A stretch of 31,049 nucleotides of DNA from a virus: positions 1-31,049 of the IMG/VR virus record IMGVR_UViG_3300010153_000055; one strand, 5' to 3'. Positions 1,960-19,934 of the stretch are shown piece by piece. Every line of letters begins with the position of its first letter. The stretch's first letter is position 1. A program made the position numbers and the translations under genes. A model generated the notes under the pieces. That model was not told where the DNA came from, made no database searches, and worked only from the letters and a program-made list of their open reading frames with translations.

Positions 1960-2907
1960 ATGGCAAAAACACTACTAAACAAAGATAGTAGAGCAATACT
2001 ACTAAACTTTGCAAAAGCTAAAATAGCTAAAACAGATACTGCTGAAAAGTCAGTATACCTAGAAGCAAGACAAAAATACTTCGATTCTTTTGAACCTATC
2101 AAAAAATTTGTTTCACAGATTGTGGGGGATCTTTATCCAACGAAAGATATCGAGGTCTTAGACAGGTACAGTCTTAAAGAGAGAGAGTCATGCTTTTGGT
2201 TTAAAGAAGATGCAAATGCTGAACGAGAAGTCTATGTCAGTATGCCACCAAAAGGTTGTGACGAAACAGGACATCACCCATACTATGGTGGTAGGCATGA
2301 CAACAATCATGTAGGTTTACCAAAAGGTGCAGACTCTCGTATCATGATGTTCCATGATGAGATGGTAAGTTCAGGTATAGATGTATCTAACTACCTTAGT
2401 TATCAAAACAATAATGGCAAGAATACAGAAGGCAAGAGAATGTCTTATGGAGATCACTCTACTATCAAAGAGAATATAATGAAGCAAGGCACAAGTCTTT
2501 TTTACGACAATGTTTCTTTTGATGGTATGGAGTTTGATGTTGCTTACAGTAAGTATAGTTGTCATTCGAGAGCAAGATTAGTGACTACTAATCAGATAGA
2601 TACTTTGATGCACAATGCCGAATGCTTTGATAGACTTCAGATAGCTTTTGATCAGATGCAAAAGTCAAGAGAGTCTTTAGTTTCTGCCTACAAAGGTTTG
2701 ATTATGGGTTCAAGACACTTTGAAACTATATTAGAAACTTGGTCAGAAGCAACAGAAATGTCTACACAGATTGGTCGTAAAGGTCAAACTGCTATCAGCA
2801 TTGTATCTCAAGACGCTATTGATCTTATTAAGCAAGACCAAATGAAGCGTAAAGCAAAAGACATGGTGGGTGTTGTTGCAACAGGAGTTGCTAATGCACA
2901 TAACTAG
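1960..2907 (+). CDS. Hypothetical protein, 315 aa
   Basis: First gene of the P3 operon, with AAAGGAG upstream. The soluble 315-residue protein has a His/Gly-rich middle (KGCDETGHHPYYGGRHDNNH, about residues 103-122) that could bind metal. A long helical C-terminal region follows (FDRLQIAFDQMQKSRESLVS and beyond). No nucleotide-binding loop, signal peptide or membrane segment is visible. The last codons overlap the start of the next gene by 14 bases. The family is not recognised; position argues for an early, non-structural role. Confidence 0.75.
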   Translation: MAKTLLNKDSRAILLNFAKAKIAKTDTAEKSVYLEARQKYFDSFEPIKKFVSQIVGDLYPTKDIEVLDRYSLKERESCFWFKEDANAEREVYVSMPPKGCDETGHHPYYGGRHDNNHVGLPKGADSRIMMFHDEMVSSGIDVSNYLSYQNNNGKNTEGKRMSYGDHSTIKENIMKQGTSLFYDNVSFDGMEFDVAYSKYSCHSRARLVTTNQIDTLMHNAECFDRLQIAFDQMQKSRESLVSAYKGLIMGSRHFETILETWSEATEMSTQIGRKGQTAISIVSQDAIDLIKQDQMKRKAKDMVGVVATGVANAHN

Positions 2908-3304
2908 TAGAAATGCTGGTGGTGGGTTTGAATATCAACACGCTAGTGATATTAAGATCAACACATTAGAGTTCACCTTTGATCAGATAGAGTCAGCCTG
3001 GCATCAGTCAGGCGACTCAGGTCAGTTGTGGCAATTATCAATTATTAAAGATGTGTATACATATCATGGCGTACACTTATCTGTAACAAATTGGTTTAAA
3101 CTTGTCAGTTATGAGATGCAAAGATTGAGAGAAGGGCAAGATCCTCAAGTCTATGTGGCAATCAAAAAGTCGAAACACTTTTGGGTTGTTGCCTCTGAGT
3201 GCATTCCTCCATTCCTTCCTAATGGTTTGACTCATTCATTTGATCCTAATAGACCTTATAGTAATACCTACAGTAAACAGACTGTTCGAAATGCCATTAT
3301 ATGA
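2894..3304 (+). CDS. Hypothetical protein, 136 aa
   Basis: I set the start at ATG 2894, which has CAGGAG (about 2880-2885) at proper spacing inside the end of the preceding gene. A longer GTG start at 2870 has no comparable site. The protein contains LEFTFDQIESAWHQSGDSGQ and several aromatic residues in a small globular domain. It has no known catalytic motif and no membrane segment. Its stop overlaps the next ATG (ATGA at 3301-3304). The family is not recognised. Confidence 0.65.
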   Translation: MHITSRNAGGGFEYQHASDIKINTLEFTFDQIESAWHQSGDSGQLWQLSIIKDVYTYHGVHLSVTNWFKLVSYEMQRLREGQDPQVYVAIKKSKHFWVVASECIPPFLPNGLTHSFDPNRPYSNTYSKQTVRNAII

Positions 3305-3573
3305 TTTGGGAACGCAAAGTTAGACTTGCTGAGATCCTACGAGATCGCCACCCTTCTACTGAGTATGAACGCTCAGTAGCAAAGGGTGTGCCGATTAAAT
3401 ATCTTAAACTATTTCAAGAAGTCTTTGTAGCTGCCAAAGGCAGGTCTTTATATACTTACCAATTCCGAGGTAAAAGTAAACCTGGATATCGCAGACAACA
3501 AAGTTATATGCATAGAGATATGGCAGATACTTTTGCTGCCTATCCTAAGTCTAGACCATTTTGGCGAAAATAA
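3301..3573 (+). CDS. Small basic hypothetical protein, 90 aa
   Basis: Last gene of the P3 operon, coupled by ATGA to the upstream gene and followed within 30 bases by an intrinsic terminator. The 90-residue product is rich in Arg, Lys and Tyr (KGRSLYTYQFRGKSKPGYRR), consistent with nucleic-acid binding, although no defined fold is recognised. No cysteines or membrane segments are present. Confidence 0.65.
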   Translation: MIWERKVRLAEILRDRHPSTEYERSVAKGVPIKYLKLFQEVFVAAKGRSLYTYQFRGKSKPGYRRQQSYMHRDMADTFAAYPKSRPFWRK

Positions 3574-3644: not shown

Positions 3645-3672
3645 TTGACAAAGTACAAATATGTGCTATACT
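3645..3672 (+). promoter_or_regulatory. Sigma70-like promoter P4 for the replication block
   Basis: TTGACA at 3645-3650, a 16-bp spacer and TATACT at 3667-3672, with TGTG just before the -10. It is one base shorter in spacing than P1, P2, P3 and P5. It lies immediately after the terminator and directly before the primase gene. The expected transcription start (about 3679) is only a few bases from the ATG at 3682. Confidence 0.75.
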
Positions 3673-3681
3673 CCTAAAACA

Positions 3682-4470
3682 ATGAATTATAATCAACAGC
3701 TAACAATAGTAAAAACATTAATACCACAAGGTGATTTAGACATGAGATTTGATTGTCCATTCTGTCATCATTCCAACACATTTGTAGTCAAGCGAGAGCA
3801 GTCAGAATTAAAATGGTATTGCTTTAGTGCATCATGTTCTGCTCATGGAAAACATGAAGTGGAGATGTCAATGCAACAGGTGGCAGAAACCGTAGTGACA
3901 GAAAACAAAGCAAAGCAAGAAAAAGAAAAGCCTTTTGTATTACCAACAAGTTTTATTTCTGTTTTATCAGAGCAAAAATGTTATGATTATCTTAAAAAAA
4001 ATAATTGTATACAAGCCAAACAAAAAGCAAAGGCAAGTTTCATGTATGATGTAAAGCAACACAGAATTGTATTCTTAATAAAAAACAAAGAAAAGATTTT
4101 AGGTGCAGTTGGTAGGGCATTAACTTCAAAAGTATATCCTAAATGGTATATGTATGGTGGTAAGACTTATCCATTTATTTGTGGAGATAGTGATACTGCA
4201 ATCCTGGTAGAAGATTGTGCAAGTGCCTGTGCTGTATCAAGTGTATATACAGGCGTAGCTTTGATGGGTACAAGTTTACCAGATACTTACATACCGATAC
4301 TTAAAAAAAAGTTTAAGAAAGTTATTGTTGCATTGGACCGGGACGCAACAACTAAATCATTTGACATAAGCGGAAAATTAAGGTATTATGTTAATACAGA
4401 AGTCAAGATATTAGAAGACGATTTAAAATACTACAACGAAAAACAAATAAAGGAGATACTAAATGCATAG
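3682..4470 (+). CDS. DNA primase (zinc-binding plus TOPRIM), stand-alone
   Basis: Synthesises RNA primers for phage DNA replication. An N-terminal zinc-binding motif (MRFDCPFC, then WYCFSASCSAHG) is followed by a linker and a TOPRIM core. The TOPRIM acidic residues are visible in AILVEDCASACAV and in VIVALDRDA, the DxD metal site. In T7 these modules are fused to the helicase as gp4; here the helicase is a separate gene at 6609, so the two probably associate as separate subunits. The ATG at 3661 lies inside the promoter and is rejected. ATG 3682 would give a nearly leaderless message, while ATG 3742 has AAGGTG eight bases upstream and begins exactly at the zinc motif. Confidence 0.85.
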   Translation: MNYNQQLTIVKTLIPQGDLDMRFDCPFCHHSNTFVVKREQSELKWYCFSASCSAHGKHEVEMSMQQVAETVVTENKAKQEKEKPFVLPTSFISVLSEQKCYDYLKKNNCIQAKQKAKASFMYDVKQHRIVFLIKNKEKILGAVGRALTSKVYPKWYMYGGKTYPFICGDSDTAILVEDCASACAVSSVYTGVALMGTSLPDTYIPILKKKFKKVIVALDRDATTKSFDISGKLRYYVNTEVKILEDDLKYYNEKQIKEILNA

Positions 4471-5299: not shown

Positions 5300-5435
5300 A
5301 GACAAGAAGTGGGCAGAAGACCACTTGATAATAGAAATAGAGGGTCTTAATAAAAAACAAAAAGACGAACTAAGAGATAAAATTATGGAAAAGGCAAGTA
5401 AAAAATTTAGAAAGGTAAAGAATGATAAAAAGTAA
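5286..5435 (+). CDS. Small basic hypothetical protein with TTG start, 49 aa
   Basis: The frame begins at TTG 5286 with AAAGGG a few bases upstream and ends at TAA 5433-5435, overlapping the methyltransferase start by 14 bases. The 49-residue product is highly charged (KKQKDELRDK, KKFRKVKNDKK). The start region TTGATAAAAAGTAAAG is nearly identical to the start of the methyltransferase gene (ATGATAAAAAGTAAAG). This supports use of the TTG and suggests local duplication. The start choice is moderately secure. Confidence 0.5.
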   Translation: MIKSKDKKWAEDHLIIEIEGLNKKQKDELRDKIMEKASKKFRKVKNDKK

Positions 5436-6375
5436 AGTTAATGTTTTATCGCTATTTGATGGCATGTCTTGCGGTCAGATAGCTTTAAAAAATTTAGGAG
5501 TAGAAGTAGGAAAGTACTATGCATCTGAAATAGATAAATATGCTATGAAGATAGCAAAGAAAAACTTTCCTGATATAGTTCATGTAGGTGATGTCACTAA
5601 GTTAGATGCAACAAACCTGGATATAGACTTGCTGATAGGTGGCTCACCATGTCAAGGTTTTAGTTTTGCAGGCAAGCAATTAAAGTTTGATGATCCAAGA
5701 AGTAAATTATTTTTTGAATTTATCAGAGTAAAAGAAGAAACAAAGCCAAGATGGTTCTTGTTAGAAAATGTAAAAATGAAACAAGATGCTCAAGATATTA
5801 TTACTAAATATATGGGAGTAAAACCAATAGAGATAAATTCAAGTTTATTATCTGCACAAAGTAGAAAAAGATTATATTGGACTAATATACCTTTCAATAA
5901 AGATATCGAAGACAAAGGAATACTCTTAAAAGATATTTTAGATAAAGAAACAGACGAAGCTGCAGTTCCTGTTAATCCTAGAAATGCTAGGCACTTTAGA
6001 AGAACAGATCAAAAAGGTTTATGTATGACTGCTACAATGTACAAAGGTGCAGGCAATAATGGGTGTACCCTGGTCGGTATGGCATCAGATATAAATGGAC
6101 ATGATATTCTAAAAAGAATATACAGCCCTGATGGTAAGGCACCTACATTAAATAGTATGGGTGGAGGTAATCGTGAACCGAAAGTTGACATAAGTACAGA
6201 ATATGATATAAATAAAGATAGATGGAGAAAGCTAACAGTCACAGAATGCGAAAGATTGCAAACTGTACCTGTTGGGTATACAGAGGGTGTATCGAATACA
6301 CAAAGATATAAGATGCTAGGAAATGGTTGGACAATAGATGTTATTTCGCATATACTTAAAGGTATGAATATATAA
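5422..6375 (+). CDS. DNA (cytosine-5) methyltransferase, orphan
   Basis: Transfers a methyl group from S-adenosylmethionine to cytosine C5 in a short DNA target. The motifs are in canonical order: I, LSLFDGMSCGQ (residues 9-19); IV, GGSPCQGFSFAG with the catalytic Cys77; VI, ENVK with Glu115; VIII, QSRKRLYW (146-153); IX, TVTECERLQTVP; and X, MLGNGWTIDV at the C-terminus. The 317-aa length is normal for the family, with a short target-recognition domain between VIII and IX. No restriction endonuclease gene is adjacent, so it probably protects phage DNA from host restriction or marks it for packaging or replication. It overlaps the upstream small ORF. Confidence 0.93.
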   Translation: MIKSKVNVLSLFDGMSCGQIALKNLGVEVGKYYASEIDKYAMKIAKKNFPDIVHVGDVTKLDATNLDIDLLIGGSPCQGFSFAGKQLKFDDPRSKLFFEFIRVKEETKPRWFLLENVKMKQDAQDIITKYMGVKPIEINSSLLSAQSRKRLYWTNIPFNKDIEDKGILLKDILDKETDEAAVPVNPRNARHFRRTDQKGLCMTATMYKGAGNNGCTLVGMASDINGHDILKRIYSPDGKAPTLNSMGGGNREPKVDISTEYDINKDRWRKLTVTECERLQTVPVGYTEGVSNTQRYKMLGNGWTIDVISHILKGMNI

Positions 6376-6396: not shown

Positions 6397-6609
6397 ATGA
6401 CTCATCAAGAATTTAGAAGTTGGATTATAGACGAACAAGAAAAAGAAGAAAGAGAAGCAATGGGCATAGAAGAAAAAGCAACGACAACAAGAATTTGTAT
6501 GATGTGTAGTAAAGTATTTGAAAGCGAAAGCAAAGTAAATAGAATATGCTCACCATGTAAGCGTACAGACGATTGGACATATGGAAATGATTATGGTATA
6601 TTAAGATAA
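6397..6609 (+). CDS. Zinc-ribbon protein, 70 aa
   Basis: The Glu-rich N-terminal helix is followed by CMMC (about residues 32-35) and, after FESESKVNRI, a second pair CSPC (about residues 50-53), making a one-zinc ribbon. Small proteins with this CxxC-x-F-x-S-nR-CxxC pattern are common in alphaproteobacterial phages and are uncharacterised. The gene is the immediate upstream partner of the helicase: its TAA overlaps the helicase ATG (TAATG at 6607-6611). Role in replication or transcription is inferred only from context. Confidence 0.75.
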   Translation: MTHQEFRSWIIDEQEKEEREAMGIEEKATTTRICMMCSKVFESESKVNRICSPCKRTDDWTYGNDYGILR

Positions 6610-7820
6610 TGATAGAAAAAGAACTTATAAAATTATTACTTAGCAAAGAGTTTTACACAAAAAACAAAGCAAAGTTATCTAAAGAATTATTTACAAATGG
6701 CACAGGCGATTTGTATAACACAATAGCTAAAGCGCATATAGACTCAGATAATGACCTAACATTAAATGAGATATCAACTTTGTATACTGATGTTGATAAT
6801 CCTGCTTTAACTAGGGTAGCAAAACAAAATTTTCAATCTTTGATTGAGGATATAGAATCTGCCTCTTTACCTAATGAAAAAATAGCTAACAATATATTAG
6901 AGTCGTTGTATAAACGAAGACAAGCAAATAAAATTGCTGTATTAGCTACGGAGATTTATAATGGAAAAGAGGCAGATTTTAGTGAGATTAAAAAGTGTTT
7001 AGAGTCATCTATTGATGATGAAGGTGACAACTATGAATATATTACTTCTGATGTGGGTGAGTTAGTGGAACAATTGAAAGACAATACTAAGTTTAAATTT
7101 AACCTAAAGCCATTGCAAGATCGTGTACATGGTATTGGTGAAGGCAATTTAGTTATATTATTTGCTCGCCCCGAAAGTGGTAAGACTGCATTTTGGGTAA
7201 ACCTTATTGCAGGAATAAATGGTTTTGCATCACAAGGTGCAAAAGTTTGTGCTCTGATAAATGAAGAACCTGCCATCAGGACACAAATGAGACTAATCAA
7301 TGCGCATACTGGTATGACATTTGAAGAAATAAAAAACGATACTGCCCTAGCCAATAGGAAATGGGCTGAGATCAAAGAAAATGTAAAGATATTAGATACT
7401 GTTGATTGGGATTTAGTTAAAGTAGATAAGTTAGTAGCGCAAGAAAAGCCTGATATAATCGTAATTGACCAGCTAGATAAAGTTGGAGTTGCAGGAAACT
7501 TTGCTCGTACTGATGAAAAACTTAGGGCTATATATACAGGTGCTAGGGAGATTGCCAAAAGAAACAATTGCTGTGTGATTGCGATCTCTCAAGCATCTGC
7601 TGATGCTCAAGGTAAACTTGACATAACCTTTGATATGATGGAGAATAGCAAAACAGGAAAAGCTGCAGAAGCAGATATTATTATAGGCGTAGGGTATAGA
7701 GACAAGGTGGACATGGATAAAAATCTACGAGGATTAAATATAACTAAAAATAAGATAACAGGGTGGCATGGAATGATACCATGCAATATAATCCCAGAAC
7801 TGTCGAGGTATGAGGAATGA
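6609..7820 (+). CDS. DnaB-like replicative helicase
   Basis: RecA-fold ATPase that unwinds the phage replication fork. The Walker A loop ARPESGKT lies at residues 186-193. The catalytic Glu (NEEP) is near residue 219, Walker B PDIIVIDQLD is at 281-290 and a Gln sensor (IAISQAS) is near residue 328. A C-terminal RGLNITKNK resembles the arginine-finger region of DnaB/T7 gp4 helicases. The N-terminal 140 residues are helical and lack zinc or TOPRIM motifs, consistent with the primase being encoded separately at 3682. The gene is coupled to the zinc-ribbon gene upstream and to the polymerase downstream (ATGA at 7817-7820). Confidence 0.9.
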   Translation: MIEKELIKLLLSKEFYTKNKAKLSKELFTNGTGDLYNTIAKAHIDSDNDLTLNEISTLYTDVDNPALTRVAKQNFQSLIEDIESASLPNEKIANNILESLYKRRQANKIAVLATEIYNGKEADFSEIKKCLESSIDDEGDNYEYITSDVGELVEQLKDNTKFKFNLKPLQDRVHGIGEGNLVILFARPESGKTAFWVNLIAGINGFASQGAKVCALINEEPAIRTQMRLINAHTGMTFEEIKNDTALANRKWAEIKENVKILDTVDWDLVKVDKLVAQEKPDIIVIDQLDKVGVAGNFARTDEKLRAIYTGAREIAKRNNCCVIAISQASADAQGKLDITFDMMENSKTGKAAEADIIIGVGYRDKVDMDKNLRGLNITKNKITGWHGMIPCNIIPELSRYEE

Positions 7821-9853
7821 TCACTACATTTGATGTAGAGACTAGCTTTCAAGTAACTGATGAAGGTAAACTAGACCCATCAGCAAAAAACCCACACAAC
7901 TTTTTAATTTGTATGGGTTTGAATGATGACTATATCTTTTTTAAGCATAATGAGTTCAGGGGAACTCCTGATAGAAAGAGGGTACAAGGTATACTAGATA
8001 AAACTACTCTATTAGTTGGTCACAATATAAAGTTTGACTTAATTTGGTTATGGGAATCTGGATTTTCTTACTCAGGCAGGGTCTATGACACCATGATAGG
8101 CGAATATATGCTTAATAGAGGCTTAAAACGCAGTTTAAAGCTAAAAGATTGCTGTGTTAGAAGAAATGTTACGCAAAAGTCTGATTTAATGGAAGGGTTT
8201 ATCAAAAACAAGACCTCATTTGAGAATGTGCCTATAGGAATGCTAGAAGAGTATGGTAGATTTGATATAAAATCAACACGATCATTGTTTGATGCCCAAA
8301 TAGAACAGTTTAAGATACCTAAGAATAAAAAATTAATAAAAAGTACTAAGATGATGTGTGAGTTTCTAGTTGTATTAGCTAATATGGAAAACAATGGCAT
8401 TTACATTGATGAGGAGGCATTAAAACAAGTAGAAAAGGATTTCCAAGAAGAACAAGACAGACTTCGTGTAGAAATTGATGAAACTATATATAAAAAAATG
8501 GGAGATACTTCTATAAATCCTTCTAGTCCAGAGCAATTGTCCTGGTTAATCTATGGAGCAAAGGTTACTGACAAAAAGAAATGGTCTGTACAATTTAATT
8601 TAGGATTAGACCCATTTACAAAGAAGCCAAAGAGAAGATATCAGTATTCTAAAACAGAAATGAGAAAGATTTTTGATATGTTTTTACAACCTGTGTATAA
8701 AACTAAAGCACAACAATGCCCTACTTGTAATGGAAAAGGGCATATACAAAAGTATAAAGTTAATGGAGACCCTTATAAAAATCTTACTAAGTGTATGGAT
8801 TGTGGAGGCAAAGGTTTTATTTATAAAAATTTAAAAGAAAGAGCAGGATTTAATGCTAAAGTAGAATCTGTTATGGATATTGCTGAAGGCGGTTTTAAAA
8901 CTGATAAAAATACTTTACTCAAAGTGGCAAAAACAGGTAATGAAGAATTGCGAGATTTTATAGAAAAGATATCTAGGTACAATGCTTTAGATACATACTT
9001 AAAAACTTTTGTTGAAGGTATTAAAAAGCATAAAACAGAAGTTAATTATTTGTATCCAAACTTTATGCAATGTATTACAACAACAGGCAGACTATCTAGT
9101 CGTGACCCAAACTTCCAAAATCAACCAAGAGGTGGTACTTTCCCAATACGAAAAGTTATTCGTTCACGATTTGATAATGGAAATATTATGGAGATAGATT
9201 TTGCACAATTAGAATTTAGAACTGCTGTCTTTCTAGCACAAGACAAACAAGGACTAAAAGATATTAATGATGGCGTTGATGTCCATCAATTTACTGCTGA
9301 TACAATAGGGTGTTCCAGGCAACAAGCTAAAGCGCACACATTTAAACCTTTGTATGGTGGGATGTCAGGGACTGAAGATGAAAAGAAATACTATACAGAA
9401 TTTCTAAAAAAATACCCTGACATAAAAGTTTGGCATGATAAGCTGCAAAGTGAGGCAATACGACATAAAGTCATAACTCTACCAACAGGTAGGCAGTACG
9501 CTTTTCCAAGTGCAGAACGCATGCCATGGGGTGGCTCAAGCTTTTCAACACAGATAAAAAACTATCCTGTGCAAGGCTTAGCCACTGCTGACATTGTTCC
9601 TCTAGCATGTATCCTTTCTCAAAAATTGCTAGAGAGCAATGGCACAAAGAGCATCTTAATCAACACAGTGCATGACTCTATAGTCGCTGATGTATTTCCT
9701 GGTGAGGAACAAATAGTAGCCGAGTGTTTAACACAAGGTTGTTTGGGTGTGGTTGATGAACTTATGGAGAGGTATAGTGTTGATTTTGATGTTCCATTAG
9801 AGGTTGAGATAAAGGTTGGACCAAATTGGTTAGACACTACAATTTATCATTGA
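7817..9853 (+). CDS. polA: Family A DNA polymerase with 3'-5' exonuclease and thumb zinc-ribbon insertion
   Basis: Replicative phage polymerase, 678 aa. Proofreading domain: DxE at residues 6-8 (FDVETS), HNIKFD at 69-74 and YGRFD at 146-150. Polymerase domain: motif A IDFAQLEFR with Asp461; motif B R501-K505-F509-Y513-G514; motif C VHDS with Asp620. Phe509 sits where ddNTP-discriminating enzymes have Phe. Unusually, between the thumb helix NPSSPEQLSWLIYG (235-247) and TDKNTLLKVA (362-371) there is an extra segment of about 110 residues. It contains two CxxCxGxG motifs (C301/C304 and C326/C329). No 5'-nuclease domain is present. The end of the gene contains the next promoter's -35. Confidence 0.95.
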   Translation: MITTFDVETSFQVTDEGKLDPSAKNPHNFLICMGLNDDYIFFKHNEFRGTPDRKRVQGILDKTTLLVGHNIKFDLIWLWESGFSYSGRVYDTMIGEYMLNRGLKRSLKLKDCCVRRNVTQKSDLMEGFIKNKTSFENVPIGMLEEYGRFDIKSTRSLFDAQIEQFKIPKNKKLIKSTKMMCEFLVVLANMENNGIYIDEEALKQVEKDFQEEQDRLRVEIDETIYKKMGDTSINPSSPEQLSWLIYGAKVTDKKKWSVQFNLGLDPFTKKPKRRYQYSKTEMRKIFDMFLQPVYKTKAQQCPTCNGKGHIQKYKVNGDPYKNLTKCMDCGGKGFIYKNLKERAGFNAKVESVMDIAEGGFKTDKNTLLKVAKTGNEELRDFIEKISRYNALDTYLKTFVEGIKKHKTEVNYLYPNFMQCITTTGRLSSRDPNFQNQPRGGTFPIRKVIRSRFDNGNIMEIDFAQLEFRTAVFLAQDKQGLKDINDGVDVHQFTADTIGCSRQQAKAHTFKPLYGGMSGTEDEKKYYTEFLKKYPDIKVWHDKLQSEAIRHKVITLPTGRQYAFPSAERMPWGGSSFSTQIKNYPVQGLATADIVPLACILSQKLLESNGTKSILINTVHDSIVADVFPGEEQIVAECLTQGCLGVVDELMERYSVDFDVPLEVEIKVGPNWLDTTIYH

Positions 9854-9910: not shown

Positions 9911-10768
9911 ATGAGTAATGAAGTAAAACCTTTTGAGTCTCTTTCTAACGAAGAGATAATGAAGATGACAGGGCAAGATGACGGATCTCAAATGGGGTCT
10001 GGTACTTTGCCAAGATTGGCAATAAACAGAGCTGCTGAAGATGATGATGGGAATGCCTTGAGAGCAGGGGTATATAATATTTACGATCCTGAATCAGAAG
10101 CTAAAGTCTATAGCTTAAAAGATACAGCAGTACAGTTTCGACCATTTATTAACGCTTATCAATACATGGAATATGACGCAGATGCTAACAAATATGCCTC
10201 TACATCAGTAATCTTTAAATCATGGAAAGATGAGCCTATTGACACAAAAGGGGGAGTACGATGCGGAAAAGTTATTGGTAAAGATAAAGAGCAACTTACT
10301 GAAGCCGAAGTAGACGCACAAAGAAACATAAAATGCTACAGATTAGTGTATGGGCTACTTAGCATGGAGTGTACTAAAGCAGATGGTACAGCAACAACTG
10401 TAACTGAAATGCCTGTTTTATGGCGTGTAACAGGTATGAATTTTAAACCTATTGGAGAAACTCTAAAAGGATTAAAAGGCAGAAATAGTTTGATGTTCAA
10501 TCATGTGCTAAACTTAACCACTAAACGAAAGAAGAGTGGAAGTAATACGTTCTATGTAGCATCTATTGATACTGATAGTAAGCAAGTTGAATTTTCTAAG
10601 AAAGACCTTGAGCATATGGATATGTTTAATGAGTTAATTCAAGATGAGAATAAGAGGATTGCAGAGCAATGGAAACAAGCTAATGCTACTAGTGTAAGAG
10701 ATGATGCTAGTGCTAAGATCGTAGAAGCTGTGGCAGAAGACAGTCCAGAGGAGTTCTTAGCCAACTAA
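9911..10768 (+). CDS. Putative ssDNA-binding-type protein, 285 aa
   Basis: The protein has a strong GGAGGTG ribosome-binding site and its own promoter, implying high expression. It shows an LPRLAINR motif near residue 35, a beta-rich body (VYNIYDPESEAKVYSLKDTA, and WRVTGMNFKPIGETLKGL) and an acidic C-terminus ending DSPEEFLAN. An acidic tail and placement between the polymerase and recombination nucleases are typical of phage single-strand binding proteins. I cannot see an OB-fold signature directly, so the function is inferred from context and composition. The stop overlaps the nuclease ATG (TAATG). Confidence 0.6.
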   Translation: MSNEVKPFESLSNEEIMKMTGQDDGSQMGSGTLPRLAINRAAEDDDGNALRAGVYNIYDPESEAKVYSLKDTAVQFRPFINAYQYMEYDADANKYASTSVIFKSWKDEPIDTKGGVRCGKVIGKDKEQLTEAEVDAQRNIKCYRLVYGLLSMECTKADGTATTVTEMPVLWRVTGMNFKPIGETLKGLKGRNSLMFNHVLNLTTKRKKSGSNTFYVASIDTDSKQVEFSKKDLEHMDMFNELIQDENKRIAEQWKQANATSVRDDASAKIVEAVAEDSPEEFLAN

Positions 10769-11667
10769 TGTCAAACTCTATTTTAAACAGAGTACAAATG
10801 TTTCTCACAGAGGCTAACAAAGCCTCTGTGGGTGTATCTAGTACGATAGTGAATGAGTTTGGAGAAGCGTGTAAAGATGCTTTTAAAAAGCAGTTTACTG
10901 AACAGCGTGATAATAAATTTACAACACGCATGTCAAGTATAGGCAGACCTCTTTGCCAATTACAAATGGAAAAATCTGGAGCAGAGCCAGAACCCATGCC
11001 TTACAATACGAAAATGAGAAACCTATTTGGTGATATGATTGAAGCTGCAGCAGTAGCAATACTAAAAGCTTCAGGAATTAAAGTAGATGATATTCAGAAA
11101 CATGTTAAATATAAATTTGATAATAACGAAGAAATTTCTGGAACATATGATATTAAAATCCAAAATAAAATATATGATATTAAAAGTGCATCGCCCTGGG
11201 CATTTGAACATAAATTTAGTGATGAAGGAGGTTTTGATGCTATACTGAAAGAGGATACTTTTGGATATGTATCTCAAGGATATCTATATTCTAATGCAGA
11301 AAATACAGACTTTGGAGGGTGGATTGCTATTAATAAATCTACAGGAGAATGGGCAGTAACCGAAACACCATTGTCAGACGACCACCATTCACAAGAAGCT
11401 ATTAAGAAAGCTAAAGATAATATGGAAGCGTTAAATTCAAATGCCCCATTTAAAAGACTATTTAAAGATGAAGATGAATACTTTAACAGAAAAGCTACAG
11501 GTAATAAAATATTACCATTGCAATGTAGATTTTGTGCATATAAAAAACCTTGTTGGGGAGAAAAGTTAAAACATTTACCTCAACAACAATCTAAAGCACT
11601 TACTCCTAAATGGGTATGGTATACTGAAGTTAATAATCCTAGGGAGGAAGATGGACACACGAAGTAA
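10768..11667 (+). CDS. Cas4/RecB-like PD-(D/E)XK exonuclease with four Fe-S-type cysteines
   Basis: Predicted DNA exonuclease. The core is visible as SGTYDI (Asp128), YDIKSAS (Asp137-x-Lys139) and a downstream YVSQGYLY helix with Gln170, the QxxxY-like motif of the RecB/Cas4 group. Cys63 lies in SSIGRPLCQ and three further cysteines follow in CRFCAYKKPC (253, 256, 262). One N-terminal plus three C-terminal cysteines is the 4Fe-4S arrangement known for AddB and Cas4. It probably resects DNA ends for phage recombination, with the neighbouring putative ssDNA-binding protein. The end overlaps the next gene by 17 bases. Confidence 0.8.
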   Translation: MSNSILNRVQMFLTEANKASVGVSSTIVNEFGEACKDAFKKQFTEQRDNKFTTRMSSIGRPLCQLQMEKSGAEPEPMPYNTKMRNLFGDMIEAAAVAILKASGIKVDDIQKHVKYKFDNNEEISGTYDIKIQNKIYDIKSASPWAFEHKFSDEGGFDAILKEDTFGYVSQGYLYSNAENTDFGGWIAINKSTGEWAVTETPLSDDHHSQEAIKKAKDNMEALNSNAPFKRLFKDEDEYFNRKATGNKILPLQCRFCAYKKPCWGEKLKHLPQQQSKALTPKWVWYTEVNNPREEDGHTK

Positions 11668-12010
11668 AAAAGCTAAAGGAAGAAGACTGCAAAATTGGGT
11701 AAGAGATAAACTCTTATCTGCATTCCCTTCTTTAACTACTGATGATATATCAGGGGCTATTATGGGAGAAACTGGAGTTGATATTAAATTTTCAACTAGG
11801 GCTAAAGAATTGATACCTTATTCTATAGAATGTAAGAATAAAGAAACATTCAAAGGTATATACGATATTATGGTACAAGCAAATCATCATATAAAAGAAA
11901 ACGAAACAGCAATTGCTGTTATAAAAATGAATCAGCGTGAACCTTTAATGATAGTTGATGCAGAACATTTTATAAATTTAATAAAGGAGAAAAATGCCGA
12001 AAAAAAATAA
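11651..12010 (+). CDS. PD-(D/E)XK resolvase-like endonuclease, 119 aa
   Basis: A small nuclease whose pattern matches a phage family often annotated as Holliday-junction-resolvase-like. The order is AKGRRLQNWV at residues 8-17, then DDISGAIMGETGVDIKFS with Asp44. YSIECKNK follows, with the catalytic Glu60-x-Lys62, and then a Gln-containing helix (MVQANHH). It would cut branched DNA during recombination or before packaging. Start ATG 11651 has GGGAGGAAG upstream and lies inside the end of the Cas4-like gene, so the two nucleases are translationally coupled. Resolvase versus general structure-specific nuclease cannot be separated by sequence alone. Confidence 0.78.
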   Translation: MDTRSKKAKGRRLQNWVRDKLLSAFPSLTTDDISGAIMGETGVDIKFSTRAKELIPYSIECKNKETFKGIYDIMVQANHHIKENETAIAVIKMNQREPLMIVDAEHFINLIKEKNAEKK

Positions 12011-15854: not shown

Positions 15855-18800
15855 TTAGTCTCCTCTATTAAAATTTATAAATGGCTCACGAACTTCTAAA
15901 TCCATATCGTCTATACTTTTCATTATTTTGTCAAAGAAAGTTGCCATAAGTTTGTCTATCTGGGACAATTTAAATTTTTTCATCTGTCCAGACATTTCTT
16001 TATCTTGTATAATAAGATTTCTTTGGGTATTAAGCTTTGCTGCAGTTCTGCCATAGTTCTCTAGTCTACCCGATATTGCTAGTAATTCTAGATTTTCAGG
16101 GTCTTGTAAAAACTCTCTTAATAGTTCTACTTTACCTTCATCTTTAAATTTCATCATTTGATTTCTTGCTTTAGTTGCTTCAGCTTTGAATCTGTAAAAG
16201 TCTGCTTCAGCTTGTGTAAATTTAGGAGGATCTAGTTGTAAGAATCTTTTTATAAAAATAAACTCATCTAATCTTTTATCTGGCATTTCTGCATCAGAGA
16301 ATATATCAAAAGTTTCATCTACTAAATCTAAAAGGTATCCACCCATTGCACCTGTATATGCATTCCAAAAGTTTTCAAACTGTATAGGAGACATTAGGTA
16401 TTTTCTAATTGCAGGAGGAGCGCCTTCAATTGCAGCAGTTATAGTTTTACTACTCCAAGGATAAGATTGACCATAGTCAGGCAAACTGTTTTGCATGTTT
16501 GGAGATATAACAGGAGACCCAAAGAATGTTCTATTTCTTGCTGTATTAAATAAAGGAGATATTACTTGTGGCACATAAGATAGTCTAGCTTGATTTTTTA
16601 ACACTGTCCATGAGGTAAGAAGAAACTGATCTCCATTTTTAGTACCATCTAAAGTTTCTAAAAAGTTTGTTAGTATAGTCCCTATTGCGCCAAATTCAAA
16701 AGGCTTTGGAATCTTAATAAAATTACCATCACCGATAGGTATCATATAATGTAAGTCTCGTATTTGCTGAGATGTGTTTTGATAATTAGGATCATCCTTA
16801 TTAAGAATATGAAGTAGTAAAGAAGGAGCAGCTACATACGCTGTTATTTTAGAAATAACTGCTGCCCTAACTTTAGGACCTTCGTTTTTAAGTGCTCTTA
16901 CAGTCCTATAAATACCTTGAATACCTGCATTTAGAAAGGGAACAGTAGATGTATACTGTCTAAAGAAAGTATTTGCACCATGCATACCAAAATCTACAGC
17001 AACTTCTCTAGAAGCTAAAGCCGATTCTCTTGCAGAATATCCCATCTTTCTAAGCATTGTATACTCTGTAAAACGAGATGCGTTCTCAAAACTTGTGACA
17101 ACTTCACCATACCTATCTATAAATTTTTTAGGTCTATCCAATACATTTTTATAATTAGATCCTAACTTTCTATGAAACTCTTTTAAGAATGTCTCAGATA
17201 CTTCTCCTCTCCATAAAGTAGATCCAAAAGATCCTCCATTTAATTTAAATTCTTCGTAAAGTTCTTTGTAAGTAATTTGTGAACCATCTTTTAGTGTTAG
17301 TCTTGCATTGCTTTGAAATCTTTGAGATGTCTTTACAGCAGTACTTAGCATAGGTATATAGAAAGGATTCTTAGATAGTATAGCTGAAGAAAAAGTATCC
17401 CTTAATAAGTTAGCACCTGCAAAAAATCCTGGGTCCATAGTAACACCTTTGGTCAATAGGTTTTTAAAACCTGCCGCTGCTCTTACAAGGGCATTTGTTT
17501 TAGCAAACTGTTTAGGACTTATAGAATTTAAAGTTAAAAATAAATACTCATTTTTTACGTCATATACTGTAGGTACTATTGTGTCTTCAAGTTCTCCTGT
17601 TTTTTTATTTTTAACTTGTTTATTTCTAAATACAATAAACTGCCTTTGTCCTAAGGGTATATTTTCAGATCTAAACAGAGTAAGTCCATCTAAATCTTCT
17701 AATGTGTTAGGGTCAATAGCTAGAGGTTGTCCATCTTTTTTACTTTTTCTTATAAGGGCAGATTCAATTTCGTTAGACTTTAAAGTTATAGCTTTTAGTT
17801 GCGTTTTTGTATTTTCTCTTGCCCATGCCGTTAAACCTCCGTCTTGTCCTGGTTTTATACCTTTATTGGCTTGGTCTATTAGATCAAAAGTATTTCTTAA
17901 TACATAATTTTTATAAGATGTTGATATAATACTATTAATATTTTCTACATAGTTATCAAATAAATTTCTTAAAGGTAATTCTCCTGCTTTAGGATCAAAA
18001 CCTATAGGTGCAAACTTTGCTTTTCTTTTAACTGCTGATCCCCCACCTCTAGCAAGATTAACTAAGTGCTCATCTGTAGTTAAGTCTCTGTATAAAGGTA
18101 CATAAGGCATTCTAGCTTTTATTAGTTCAGCTTTTCTAGCTGCTGTAATAAGACCTGCGTCTACTGCAAAATCTAATAATTGAGAGTTAAACTCATTTAA
18201 AGCGTTCATTGCATTTTGGTATTCAGGTATCAGGTCACCTTTTTTTGTTTCTGTAAGTAAATCCTTTTTTACCTGATCTGCATTTTTAAATAGACTTTTA
18301 AATTTACCGTCAGATAAAGATAGTAAACTTTTAGCACCTATATAATTAAAAAATTCATCAGCGTTATATTTTTTTCCTAGATTCTTTTGTAATAAAACTT
18401 GAAGACCATCTCCTGATGCTACAGATGACCCATCTTTAAATTTAAATGTTTTTCCAAATAAGAATTGCTCTATCATTCCACCTACAGCAGGTAGGAATCT
18501 AGATTCTGCGTATACTCCTAATTGATCTTTATACTTTGATGCTAATCTAGGTATACTTTTTACCCCTGCTTTTGTAGCAGCTTCTTCTAAAAATCTTAGT
18601 CCTGCATTACTATCTAGATATTGAATAACGCCTTTCTTAACCATAGAACTATTAAAGAAATTGAATTTTAATTTTTCACTAAACGTTTTTTTAGCTGCAA
18701 CAAATTGTTTTACACCTGTAGTGCCTGCAGGTTGTGGTGAAAATACCTCATCAGTTTGAGTTACTAATGATTCTTTGACTTCTGCGTCTGTAGTTCTTGC

Positions 18801-19934
18801 TACCTCTTCATTTTTGCCTCTTCCTACACCTACATTTATATCCTTTTTAATTTTTTTTGCCGCCCCGCTTTGTAGTTTATATGTTCCTCTTCTTATATCT
18901 TCCAAAAATGTATTATAGGAATCAGTTCCAACTTCTCTATTAGGATTATCTAAATCTCTAGTCCTTACTGTTCTATTATTTATCCCTAATTTTTTATTGA
19001 CTTCCATTATATCTAATATTTCAAATCTATTGCCCTTCTTATCAGTATATATTTGTCCTGCTTTAGGTTCTATATCTTCTCCTAGCTTTAATTCTTTTAT
19101 AGCTTTTTTTGCAATACTATCTCTACTCCAAACAAAACCTTTAGCTACGCCATTAGTAAATGCAGGAATAAATGCAGAAGGTATTGCACCTGCAATAATA
19201 TTTTTTAATCTTTCCATTTTAGGATCTCCGTTAGGATCTGTTTGCAACCATTGAGTTAATCCATTTTTTGTAGCAGGAAATCTAACTAGTAAGTCTGCAA
19301 GGTTAGGATCATAAGGAGCAAAGAAAGCGCCATCTGCTAATGCACCTGCGCCTAAAGCAAGACCTGCTGTTTCCTTTCTGTTTAAAGTTTTTTTTATGAA
19401 AGGCTCTCCAAGTTTTTCTGTAAAAGGTTTTTTTAAAACGACAGGCTTTCTACCTACAGTTTTATTAGCTGCATCTATTAATAGTTCTGTTTTTGTTTTT
19501 GTTTCTCTAGGACCCCTAAGTATAACATCAATTTCATCTTTTTTACTTTCTGTTCTTAATATTTTTTGTTTTTTAAATTGGTCTCCTTTTAAATGGGCTT
19601 TTAAACCTTTGGCATTTTTAACAAATAGATAACCCCCTTTAGCTATTTTATAAGCACCTGTATAAGGTATAAAAAATTGTGAAGCAGGTCTTACAAATTG
19701 ACCTATTTTAGTTTTAGCCTCTGGTATTAGATAGCTTATCTCTACTTCTTTATCTTTAGGTACTACAAAATTATAAGCTGATTCTGCAGCATCTACAATT
19801 CCTCCTATAGGTTGTGTAAAAATATCAGATAATAGTTTTTCAGCATAAGGCTGATCTTCTTCTTTTTTATCTCTTTTGTATTGATATTTACCTTCTCTAA
19901 TTTGATTTACTATAGATTCAGTTTTTGTTACCAT
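15855..19934 (-). CDS. Giant putative internal virion protein, 1359 aa (LPD38-like region)
   Basis: Very large, mostly helical, Lys-rich protein just upstream of the lysis genes, where podoviruses encode internal core/DNA-ejection proteins. The N-terminal 160 residues are basic with an amphipathic GAYKIAKGGYLFVK stretch. A segment near residues 830-860, including DPGFFAGANLLRDTFSSAIL, resembles the 'large polyvalent protein-associated' domain LPD38. The C-terminus has charged helices (FYRFKAEATKARNQMMKF). No lytic transglycosylase motif was recognised, unlike T7 gp16. The assignment to the virion interior is inference from size, position and composition. The preceding gene ends only three bases upstream. 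Confidence 0.75.
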   Translation of the reverse strand: MVTKTESIVNQIREGKYQYKRDKKEEDQPYAEKLLSDIFTQPIGGIVDAAESAYNFVVPKDKEVEISYLIPEAKTKIGQFVRPASQFFIPYTGAYKIAKGGYLFVKNAKGLKAHLKGDQFKKQKILRTESKKDEIDVILRGPRETKTKTELLIDAANKTVGRKPVVLKKPFTEKLGEPFIKKTLNRKETAGLALGAGALADGAFFAPYDPNLADLLVRFPATKNGLTQWLQTDPNGDPKMERLKNIIAGAIPSAFIPAFTNGVAKGFVWSRDSIAKKAIKELKLGEDIEPKAGQIYTDKKGNRFEILDIMEVNKKLGINNRTVRTRDLDNPNREVGTDSYNTFLEDIRRGTYKLQSGAAKKIKKDINVGVGRGKNEEVARTTDAEVKESLVTQTDEVFSPQPAGTTGVKQFVAAKKTFSEKLKFNFFNSSMVKKGVIQYLDSNAGLRFLEEAATKAGVKSIPRLASKYKDQLGVYAESRFLPAVGGMIEQFLFGKTFKFKDGSSVASGDGLQVLLQKNLGKKYNADEFFNYIGAKSLLSLSDGKFKSLFKNADQVKKDLLTETKKGDLIPEYQNAMNALNEFNSQLLDFAVDAGLITAARKAELIKARMPYVPLYRDLTTDEHLVNLARGGGSAVKRKAKFAPIGFDPKAGELPLRNLFDNYVENINSIISTSYKNYVLRNTFDLIDQANKGIKPGQDGGLTAWARENTKTQLKAITLKSNEIESALIRKSKKDGQPLAIDPNTLEDLDGLTLFRSENIPLGQRQFIVFRNKQVKNKKTGELEDTIVPTVYDVKNEYLFLTLNSISPKQFAKTNALVRAAAGFKNLLTKGVTMDPGFFAGANLLRDTFSSAILSKNPFYIPMLSTAVKTSQRFQSNARLTLKDGSQITYKELYEEFKLNGGSFGSTLWRGEVSETFLKEFHRKLGSNYKNVLDRPKKFIDRYGEVVTSFENASRFTEYTMLRKMGYSARESALASREVAVDFGMHGANTFFRQYTSTVPFLNAGIQGIYRTVRALKNEGPKVRAAVISKITAYVAAPSLLLHILNKDDPNYQNTSQQIRDLHYMIPIGDGNFIKIPKPFEFGAIGTILTNFLETLDGTKNGDQFLLTSWTVLKNQARLSYVPQVISPLFNTARNRTFFGSPVISPNMQNSLPDYGQSYPWSSKTITAAIEGAPPAIRKYLMSPIQFENFWNAYTGAMGGYLLDLVDETFDIFSDAEMPDKRLDEFIFIKRFLQLDPPKFTQAEADFYRFKAEATKARNQMMKFKDEGKVELLREFLQDPENLELLAISGRLENYGRTAAKLNTQRNLIIQDKEMSGQMKKFKLSQIDKLMATFFDKIMKSIDDMDLEVREPFINFNRGD

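Follow-up and report, generated by a model that had tools for sequence, protein, structure and literature searches.

A two-knuckle insert in the H1–H2 thumb loop of HMO-2011-type phage DNA polymerases

Introduction

The HMO-2011-type phages form a dominant and broadly distributed marine group (PMC9038755). Their DNA polymerase contains a central partial DnaJ domain with two CXXCXGXG motifs (PMC6918029; PMC9038755), and the presence of this domain was made a criterion for the HMO-2011 group, in PMC9038755 and likewise in PMC8528129. In the polymerase passages of PMC6918029 and PMC9038755, the domain is placed between the exonuclease and the polymerase domains, and no thumb loop is named. PF00684 is also annotated in this interval in the record of HMO-2011 itself (GenBank GU557055). 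Within the openly readable literature, which does not include the original HMO-2011 paper, we found no paper that tests the insert of HMO-2011 or assigns it to a thumb loop, and the passages covering the HMO-2011-type polymerase assign it no function.

The replicative polymerase gp5 of phage T7 likewise carries an extra segment in its thumb, the thioredoxin-binding loop of 71 residues (PMC3997047). Plant organellar PolI and human Pol theta, both cellular enzymes, have insertions in the polymerase domain which modify DNA handling and which are lysine-rich in the plant thumb; the relevant part of PMC7699545 mentions no zinc knuckle. The extra motif of the Pol I of phage G20c is located at the end of the exonuclease domain, outside the thumb (PMC9629493).

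A sequence-only reading of the DNA analysed here had called the novelty of its polymerase insert uncertain and suggested that related marine phages may share it. The sharing holds, as all 82 aligned HMO-type polymerases keep the knuckles. As for novelty, the annotation in GU557055 and the descriptions in PMC6918029, PMC9038755 and PMC8528129 mean that the insert is already in print. The insert itself is thus known; the loop assignment, the charge and the likely convergence reported below are refinements.

Sequences, alignments and models

The window, as we term the whole stretch of DNA analysed, comprises 31,049 nt (IMGVR_UViG_3300010153_000055, positions 1 to 31,049). Its polymerase was aligned with those of 76 IMG/VR loci and five isolates (82 sequences). 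The 76 loci came from a set of 80, from which L005, L035, L044 and L055 were left out as incomplete; the polymerase of one of them, L002 (L002:1175-3208, IMG/VR contig 3300007963_000520), matches that of the window at all 678 residues (100% identity). Of 80 bacterial PolAs, the 28 whose match ran from residue 39–68 to 670–677 were used. The T7 motif was misplaced in plain pairwise and first-pass alignments, since the inserts of T7 and of the window differ, and was in register when the 28 bacterial PolAs were aligned along. The AlphaFold2 (AF2) model of the window polymerase was calculated from 61 sequences (mean pLDDT 90.4, pTM 0.83). A phylogenetic tree of 64 tips was built without the insert; its rows represent 17 of 80 (18 at an earlier step), 5 of 6 and 0 of 21 loci of the respective locus sets. 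From a further set of 80 loci, 32 were tried, 6 of which were excluded because of in-frame stops, and 13 further zinc-type rows were thinned before tree reconstruction.

Results

The polymerase and its replication module

Judged by its sequence, the window affiliates with the HMO-2011-type marine phages, and its polymerase is a replicative family A enzyme (PolA). In a tblastn search of 50,697 phage records, the closest homologs were the polymerases of HTVC033P and HMO-2011 with sequence identities of 58.5 and 41.5%, respectively, over 99% of the protein, followed by those of the CRP roseophages. Identities to the HMO-2011-type polymerases (12 records, 11 isolates) ranged between 37.5 and 58.5% over 98–100% of the protein. 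In the tree, the window polymerase is located in the part holding HTVC033P. The HMO-2011-type core genes for primase, helicase and DNA polymerase are present together, in the order primase, helicase, polA that is also found in HMO-2011 and HTVC033P (Table 1). A partial DnaJ domain with two CXXCXGXG motifs lies between the exonuclease and polymerase domains, as published for the group. Domain order and knuckles are those of HMO-2011, HTVC033P, CRP-1, CRP-2, CRP-3, CRP-345, CRP-738 and others, with no essential difference, and the window represents one more member. The residues of the 3'-5' exonuclease (D6, E8, D74, Y146 and D150) and of the polymerase (D461, K505 and H619-D620) are intact and identical in all 82 aligned sequences.

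Several further genes were observed in the window. A C5 cytosine-specific DNA methyltransferase (PF00145, E 7.7e-45) is encoded between primase and helicase at 5422-6375, and a protein of 70 aa, weakly matching HNH and Cas12f1-like TNB profiles, at 6397-6609. Genes for a Cas4-domain exonuclease-like protein and a RusA-like resolvase (10768-12010) follow the gene downstream of polA. A protein of 1359 aa (15855-19934) aligns with portions of very large PHROGs (2118-3427 positions); two of these lack an assigned function and one carries the label DNA methyltransferase.

Table 1 Features of the polymerase and its replication module in the window
Feature	Position (nt)	Strand	Basis
DNA primase, same replication module	3661..4470	+	
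DnaB-like replicative helicase, overlaps polA start	6609..7820	+	
Family A DNA polymerase (PolA), 678 aa	7817..9853	+	sequence, residues identical in 82/82
Predicted thumb helix H, residues 199-228	8411..8500	+	AF2 model
Predicted thumb helix H1, residues 238-246, PEQLSWLIY of the NPSSPEQLSWLIYG motif	8528..8554	+	AF2 model, motif alignment
H1–H2 insert, residues 248-361, net charge +15	8558..8899	+	alignment, AF2 model
Predicted beta strand into the knuckles, residues 294-300	8696..8716	+	AF2 model
Knuckle pair (CxxCxGxG, residues 301-333) resembling DnaJ motifs 2-3, presumably one zinc site	8717..8815	+	
Predicted beta strand out of the knuckles, residues 334-342	8816..8842	+	AF2 model
Predicted thumb helix H2, residues 364-373	8906..8935	+	AF2 model, alignment
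Putative ssDNA-binding protein, 285 aa, downstream of polA	9911..10768	+	position and acidic C-terminal tail

Extent and conservation of the insert

The extra segment with two CxxCxGxG knuckles noticed in the sequence-only reading is present in the 678-aa reading frame. Its span, given there as 8564-8896, has to be widened by two codons upstream and one codon downstream. The knuckles read CPTCNGKG (301-308) and CMDCGGKG (326-333), and the codons of C301, C304, C326 and C329 are located at 8717-8719, 8726-8728, 8792-8794 and 8801-8803. All 82 HMO-type polymerases share these four cysteines as well as G306, G317 and G333, and the cysteines are likewise invariant among 27 more divergent ribbons. 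When shuffles of the window polymerase were scored for CxxC instead of the full CxxCxGxG pair, two CxxC lay within 40 aa of each other in 1094 of 200,000, and hence the CxxC spacing alone is only moderately unusual. On the sequence evidence it is conservation, stronger than spacing, which decides that the knuckles are not a product of chance. The insert as a whole is less conserved than its enzyme: mean identity to the window was 49% for the insert vs 62% for the rest, and the insert scored lower in 80 of 80 comparisons.

Searched alone by tblastn, the insert matched 48 records. Twelve matches covered at least 80% of its length, all of them from HMO-type phages, and the remaining 36 were weak (E 0.2 or worse). 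A weak similarity (E 0.2) was observed for the C-terminal stretch of a protein labelled 'DNA polymerase exonuclease subunit' in Pseudoalteromonas phage HP1 (L207:2422-3177).

Position in the thumb

The H1 motif of the window, NPSSPEQLSWLIYG, aligns with FNLSSTKQLQTILFE of E. coli and FNPSSRDHIQKKLQE of T7. With phmmer, NPSSPEQLSWLIYG and the NPSS motif of the window aligned to FNLSSTKQLQTILFE and the FNLSS stretch of the Klenow fragment, ending at 269, and T7 from residue 334 onwards aligned to position 255 of the Klenow chain with the same FN(L/P)SS. This motif (334-338 in T7, FNPSSRDHIQ from 334) follows the extra loop of T7, whereas in the window it precedes the insert. Between H1 and H2, the alignment with the 28 bacterial PolAs gave 114 residues for the window vs 15 for T7, 16 for E. 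coli and 15-21 for the bacterial enzymes, none of which (0 of 28) carries the insert. In the AF2 model, a helix at residues 376-405 follows H2, and the order of the helices agrees with the alignment. Motif alignment, linker lengths and predicted helix order thus place the insert in the thumb, in the loop H1–H2, and the T7 thioredoxin-binding loop in the preceding loop H–H1.

The sequence-only reading was right in assigning the cysteines to the thumb and in regarding the segment as foreign to ordinary PolA proteins. Its more specific placement between helices H and H1, at the position of the T7 thioredoxin-binding domain, took the NPSSPEQLSWLIYG helix for H and has to be corrected: that helix aligns as H1, the loop of T7 precedes it, and the H1–H2 linker of T7 is an ordinary one. 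A T7-equivalent position is rejected on the basis of the phmmer anchors, the motif order in the T7 protein and the bacterial PolA alignment. The T7 domain also differs from the insert of the window in lacking CxxC motifs. Among the best 50 matches in Foldseek and VIA were bacterial, apicoplast and Pol theta polymerases and one from a Thermus phage (G20c); the absence of T7 polymerase from these 50 is uninformative.

Predicted fold and similarity to DnaJ

In the AF2 model, the insert comprises helices at 253-259 and 279-289 and a beta ribbon with the knuckles between its strands (block pLDDT 79-91). This can be read as a ribbon of two strands that a single Cys4 site closes, presumably with one zinc ion. 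We infer zinc at this site from the invariance of the cysteines (82/82) and from profile similarity.

The cysteine-rich domain of DnaJ comprises four CxxCxGxG motifs and two zinc sites. The spacing within the motifs is alike in the window insert, which in contrast has two motifs instead of four and is located inside a polymerase, and no J-domain was among the nine Pfam families matched by the polymerase at E up to 1. The top PDB match of the ribbon profile was the Cys-rich domain of E. coli DnaJ (1exk). The whole-chain E of 2.8e-5 combines three stretches, of which the strongest, motifs 2-3, reached E=0.0023 alone. Further matches were DnaJ A3 (0.0026), anti-TRAP protein (0.0099) and weaker ones including collagen and UvrA. 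PF00684 (DnaJ_CXXCXGXG) matched the whole window polymerase at E=4.4e-6 with 27.3 bits, under its gathering score of 32.7; when the 61-aa ribbon was scanned alone it scored 33.1 bits, and all 27 ribbon sequences gave a match at E up to 0.1. Since the aligned identities are largely Cys and Gly motif letters, common descent from DnaJ is not established.

Knuckle-free inserts in the same loop

Inserts without paired knuckles occupy the loop H1–H2 in other phage PolAs, namely in 28 tree rows with 48-144 residues, including two flanking residues on each side; this set includes L269, whose H1 region aligned poorly, and L215 with a single CxxC. Carriers are some Zobellviridae (Saratov-12, MEP402), KBC54, phages whose records say Autographiviridae (NMeng1, SI01, phiV141, ERS and Acinetobacter phage D2M) and others. 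A glycine- and lysine-rich, GKNKGExKTK-like tip recurs in 25 of the 28, and net charges range from -4 to +9. We met no name for these inserts, found e.g. in L180-L182, L184, L185, L208-L218, L092, L095-L099 and L287, in the parts of the literature covered. In an AF2 model of L180 (18 sequences, pLDDT 82.7), long strands surround a tip with pLDDT under 50. The polA gene itself is interrupted in three phages labelled Zobellviridae, Saratov-12, MEP402 and ICP2 (L089:2450-4543, L091:2489-4600 and L090:2450-5018): it is split into two ORFs in Saratov-12 and likewise in MEP402, where a small gene separates the two, and in ICP2 it is a joined CDS in which an ORF is embedded that the RefSeq record gives as an HNH endonuclease.

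The zinc-type polymerases formed a monophyletic clade (28 tips, support 100) whose sisters are two phages with a short loop, StenR_269 and Vibrio phage 1.015.O, the latter labelled Zobellviridae (support 97). A larger clade (58 tips, support 100) holds the zinc clade, the short-loop pair and the knuckle-free type (28 tips, support 86). On this tree, the simplest reading is an independent enlargement of the H1–H2 loop, the alternative being loss in the short-loop pair. Descent of the zinc insert from a knuckle-free hairpin that was later stapled, both going back to one ancestral insert, would account for the shared loop, and the long strands flanking the low-confidence tip of L180 resemble the predicted strands of the zinc ribbon. 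However, hhalign found no detectable homology between zinc and knuckle-free profiles (probability 0.8-1.3%), in contrast to 96.7% between the two knuckle-free profiles (21 vs 3 sequences). Together with the short-loop sister group, this argues against such a descent, which we regard as unlikely.

Charge of the insert and of neighbouring proteins

The insert of the window has a net charge of +15 vs -6 for the rest of the polymerase, in which no non-overlapping segment of 114 residues exceeds +8. Over the 82 sequences, the means are +15.1 vs -3.2, and the insert is positive in every one. Given the charges of the 28 knuckle-free inserts, enlarged H1–H2 loops are not strongly basic as a rule. A basic linker resembling KKTKTGYS is already found between H1 and H2 in the bacterial PolAs.

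The conserved protein encoded downstream of polA was within reach in 47 of the 82 loci. The acidic excess of its last ten residues ranges from +1 to +5 (mean +3.0; 43 of 47 at +2 or more), although one row, L031, looks like a different protein. With a profile of 24 sequences, nothing in the PDB matched at E up to 5, and the PHROG matches were weak. The one met most often (9 of 24, best E 1.5e-4) is of unknown function; a few single matches labelled structural or tail had E 0.03 or worse. Naming the protein SSB by homology was hence dropped, and the label stands for position and tail only. In 58 helicases, the last ten residues had an acidic excess of -2 to +2 (mean -0.5). The window helicase ends in SRYEE and, at +2, shares the top value with three others (L002, L003 and CRP-3), with no long acidic tail.

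Discussion

The 1996 deletion by Minnick et al. in E. coli Pol I reportedly removed the H1–H2 loop. Truncation of the thumb of this enzyme lowers processivity and fidelity (PMC10061031, citing Minnick 1996). The ordinary H1–H2 loop of PolA may thus be viewed as a short basic element helping to hold DNA, which the insert would lengthen from about 15 to 114 residues by two short helices and a beta ribbon with its end stapled by the four invariant cysteines. Such a long, rigid and positive arm could hold the duplex behind the active site and raise processivity without thioredoxin, resembling the T7 loop in outcome but located elsewhere, and may in addition offer a docking place to acidic-tailed replisome proteins. 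We infer bound zinc, DNA contact and processivity, and consider a zinc-stapled thumb-tip extension gripping duplex DNA the most likely nature of the insert, at a probability of about 0.5. The faster divergence of the insert compared with the rest of the enzyme speaks against a grip on DNA, and its basic surface fits protein docking equally well.

Docking is accordingly the main rival. The insert would mainly bind the acidic C-terminal tail of the putative SSB encoded after polA, and coordinate the replisome instead of gripping DNA. The acidic excess of that tail is consistent with this, the tail of the T7 SSB binds the T7 thumb loop (PMC7699545), and in a model of a C. perfringens PolA its SSB sits at the tip of the thumb (PMC10061031). 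The identity of the partner weakens the case, as no PDB relative of the 285-aa protein emerged at E up to 5, its PHROG matches are weak and L031 appears not to encode it. We consider docking as the main function possible, if rather doubtful. The sequence-only reading had also named the helicase as a partner. In T7, helicase tails do bind basic polymerase patches, one of them near the thioredoxin-binding loop (PMC12593628; PMC7699545). For a T7-style docking here the helicase C-termini give little support, their acidic excess averaging below zero, and it was rejected; the terminus of the window's own helicase, among the four most acidic, speaks against this rejection.

Insertions of cellular polymerases suggest a further role, specialised DNA handling such as strand displacement or lesion bypass, as in plant organellar PolI and human Pol theta. 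In the plant organellar enzymes, thumb insertion 1, which is rich in lysine, supports translesion synthesis (PMC7699545). In the HMO-type enzymes, however, the exonuclease residues are intact in 82 of 82 sequences and polA belongs to a primase-helicase-polA module, which together point to replication, and specialised handling appears very unlikely. The similarity to the DnaJ Cys-rich domain, the best profile match of the ribbon, could also be taken literally, the knuckle then acting as a co-chaperone that recruits host DnaK to the phage replication fork, and DnaJ has a role in lambda replication (PMC9038755). With two of the four DnaJ motifs, no J-domain among the matched Pfam families and alignment identities to 1exk that are largely motif letters, this is hardly to be expected.

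Returning to the DNA-gripping arm, a wider view can be put forward as a tentative possibility. Thumb-tip arms would have arisen independently at two loops, at H–H1 in T7 and at H1–H2 at least twice, as a knuckle-free form in a broad clade and as the zinc-stapled basic form of the HMO-2011 type, the latter being a built-in, thioredoxin-independent processivity clamp. The positional analogy to the T7 loop, tempting as it is, is corrected by the H1–H2 placement, and the same loop proves to be enlarged in other phage PolAs too. The insert serves as a marker of the HMO-2011 group. Its placement between H1 and H2 and the concentration of the enzyme's net positive charge within it make its function directly testable. 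If the proposal is true, a dominant group of marine phages would have a processivity clamp built into its polymerase.
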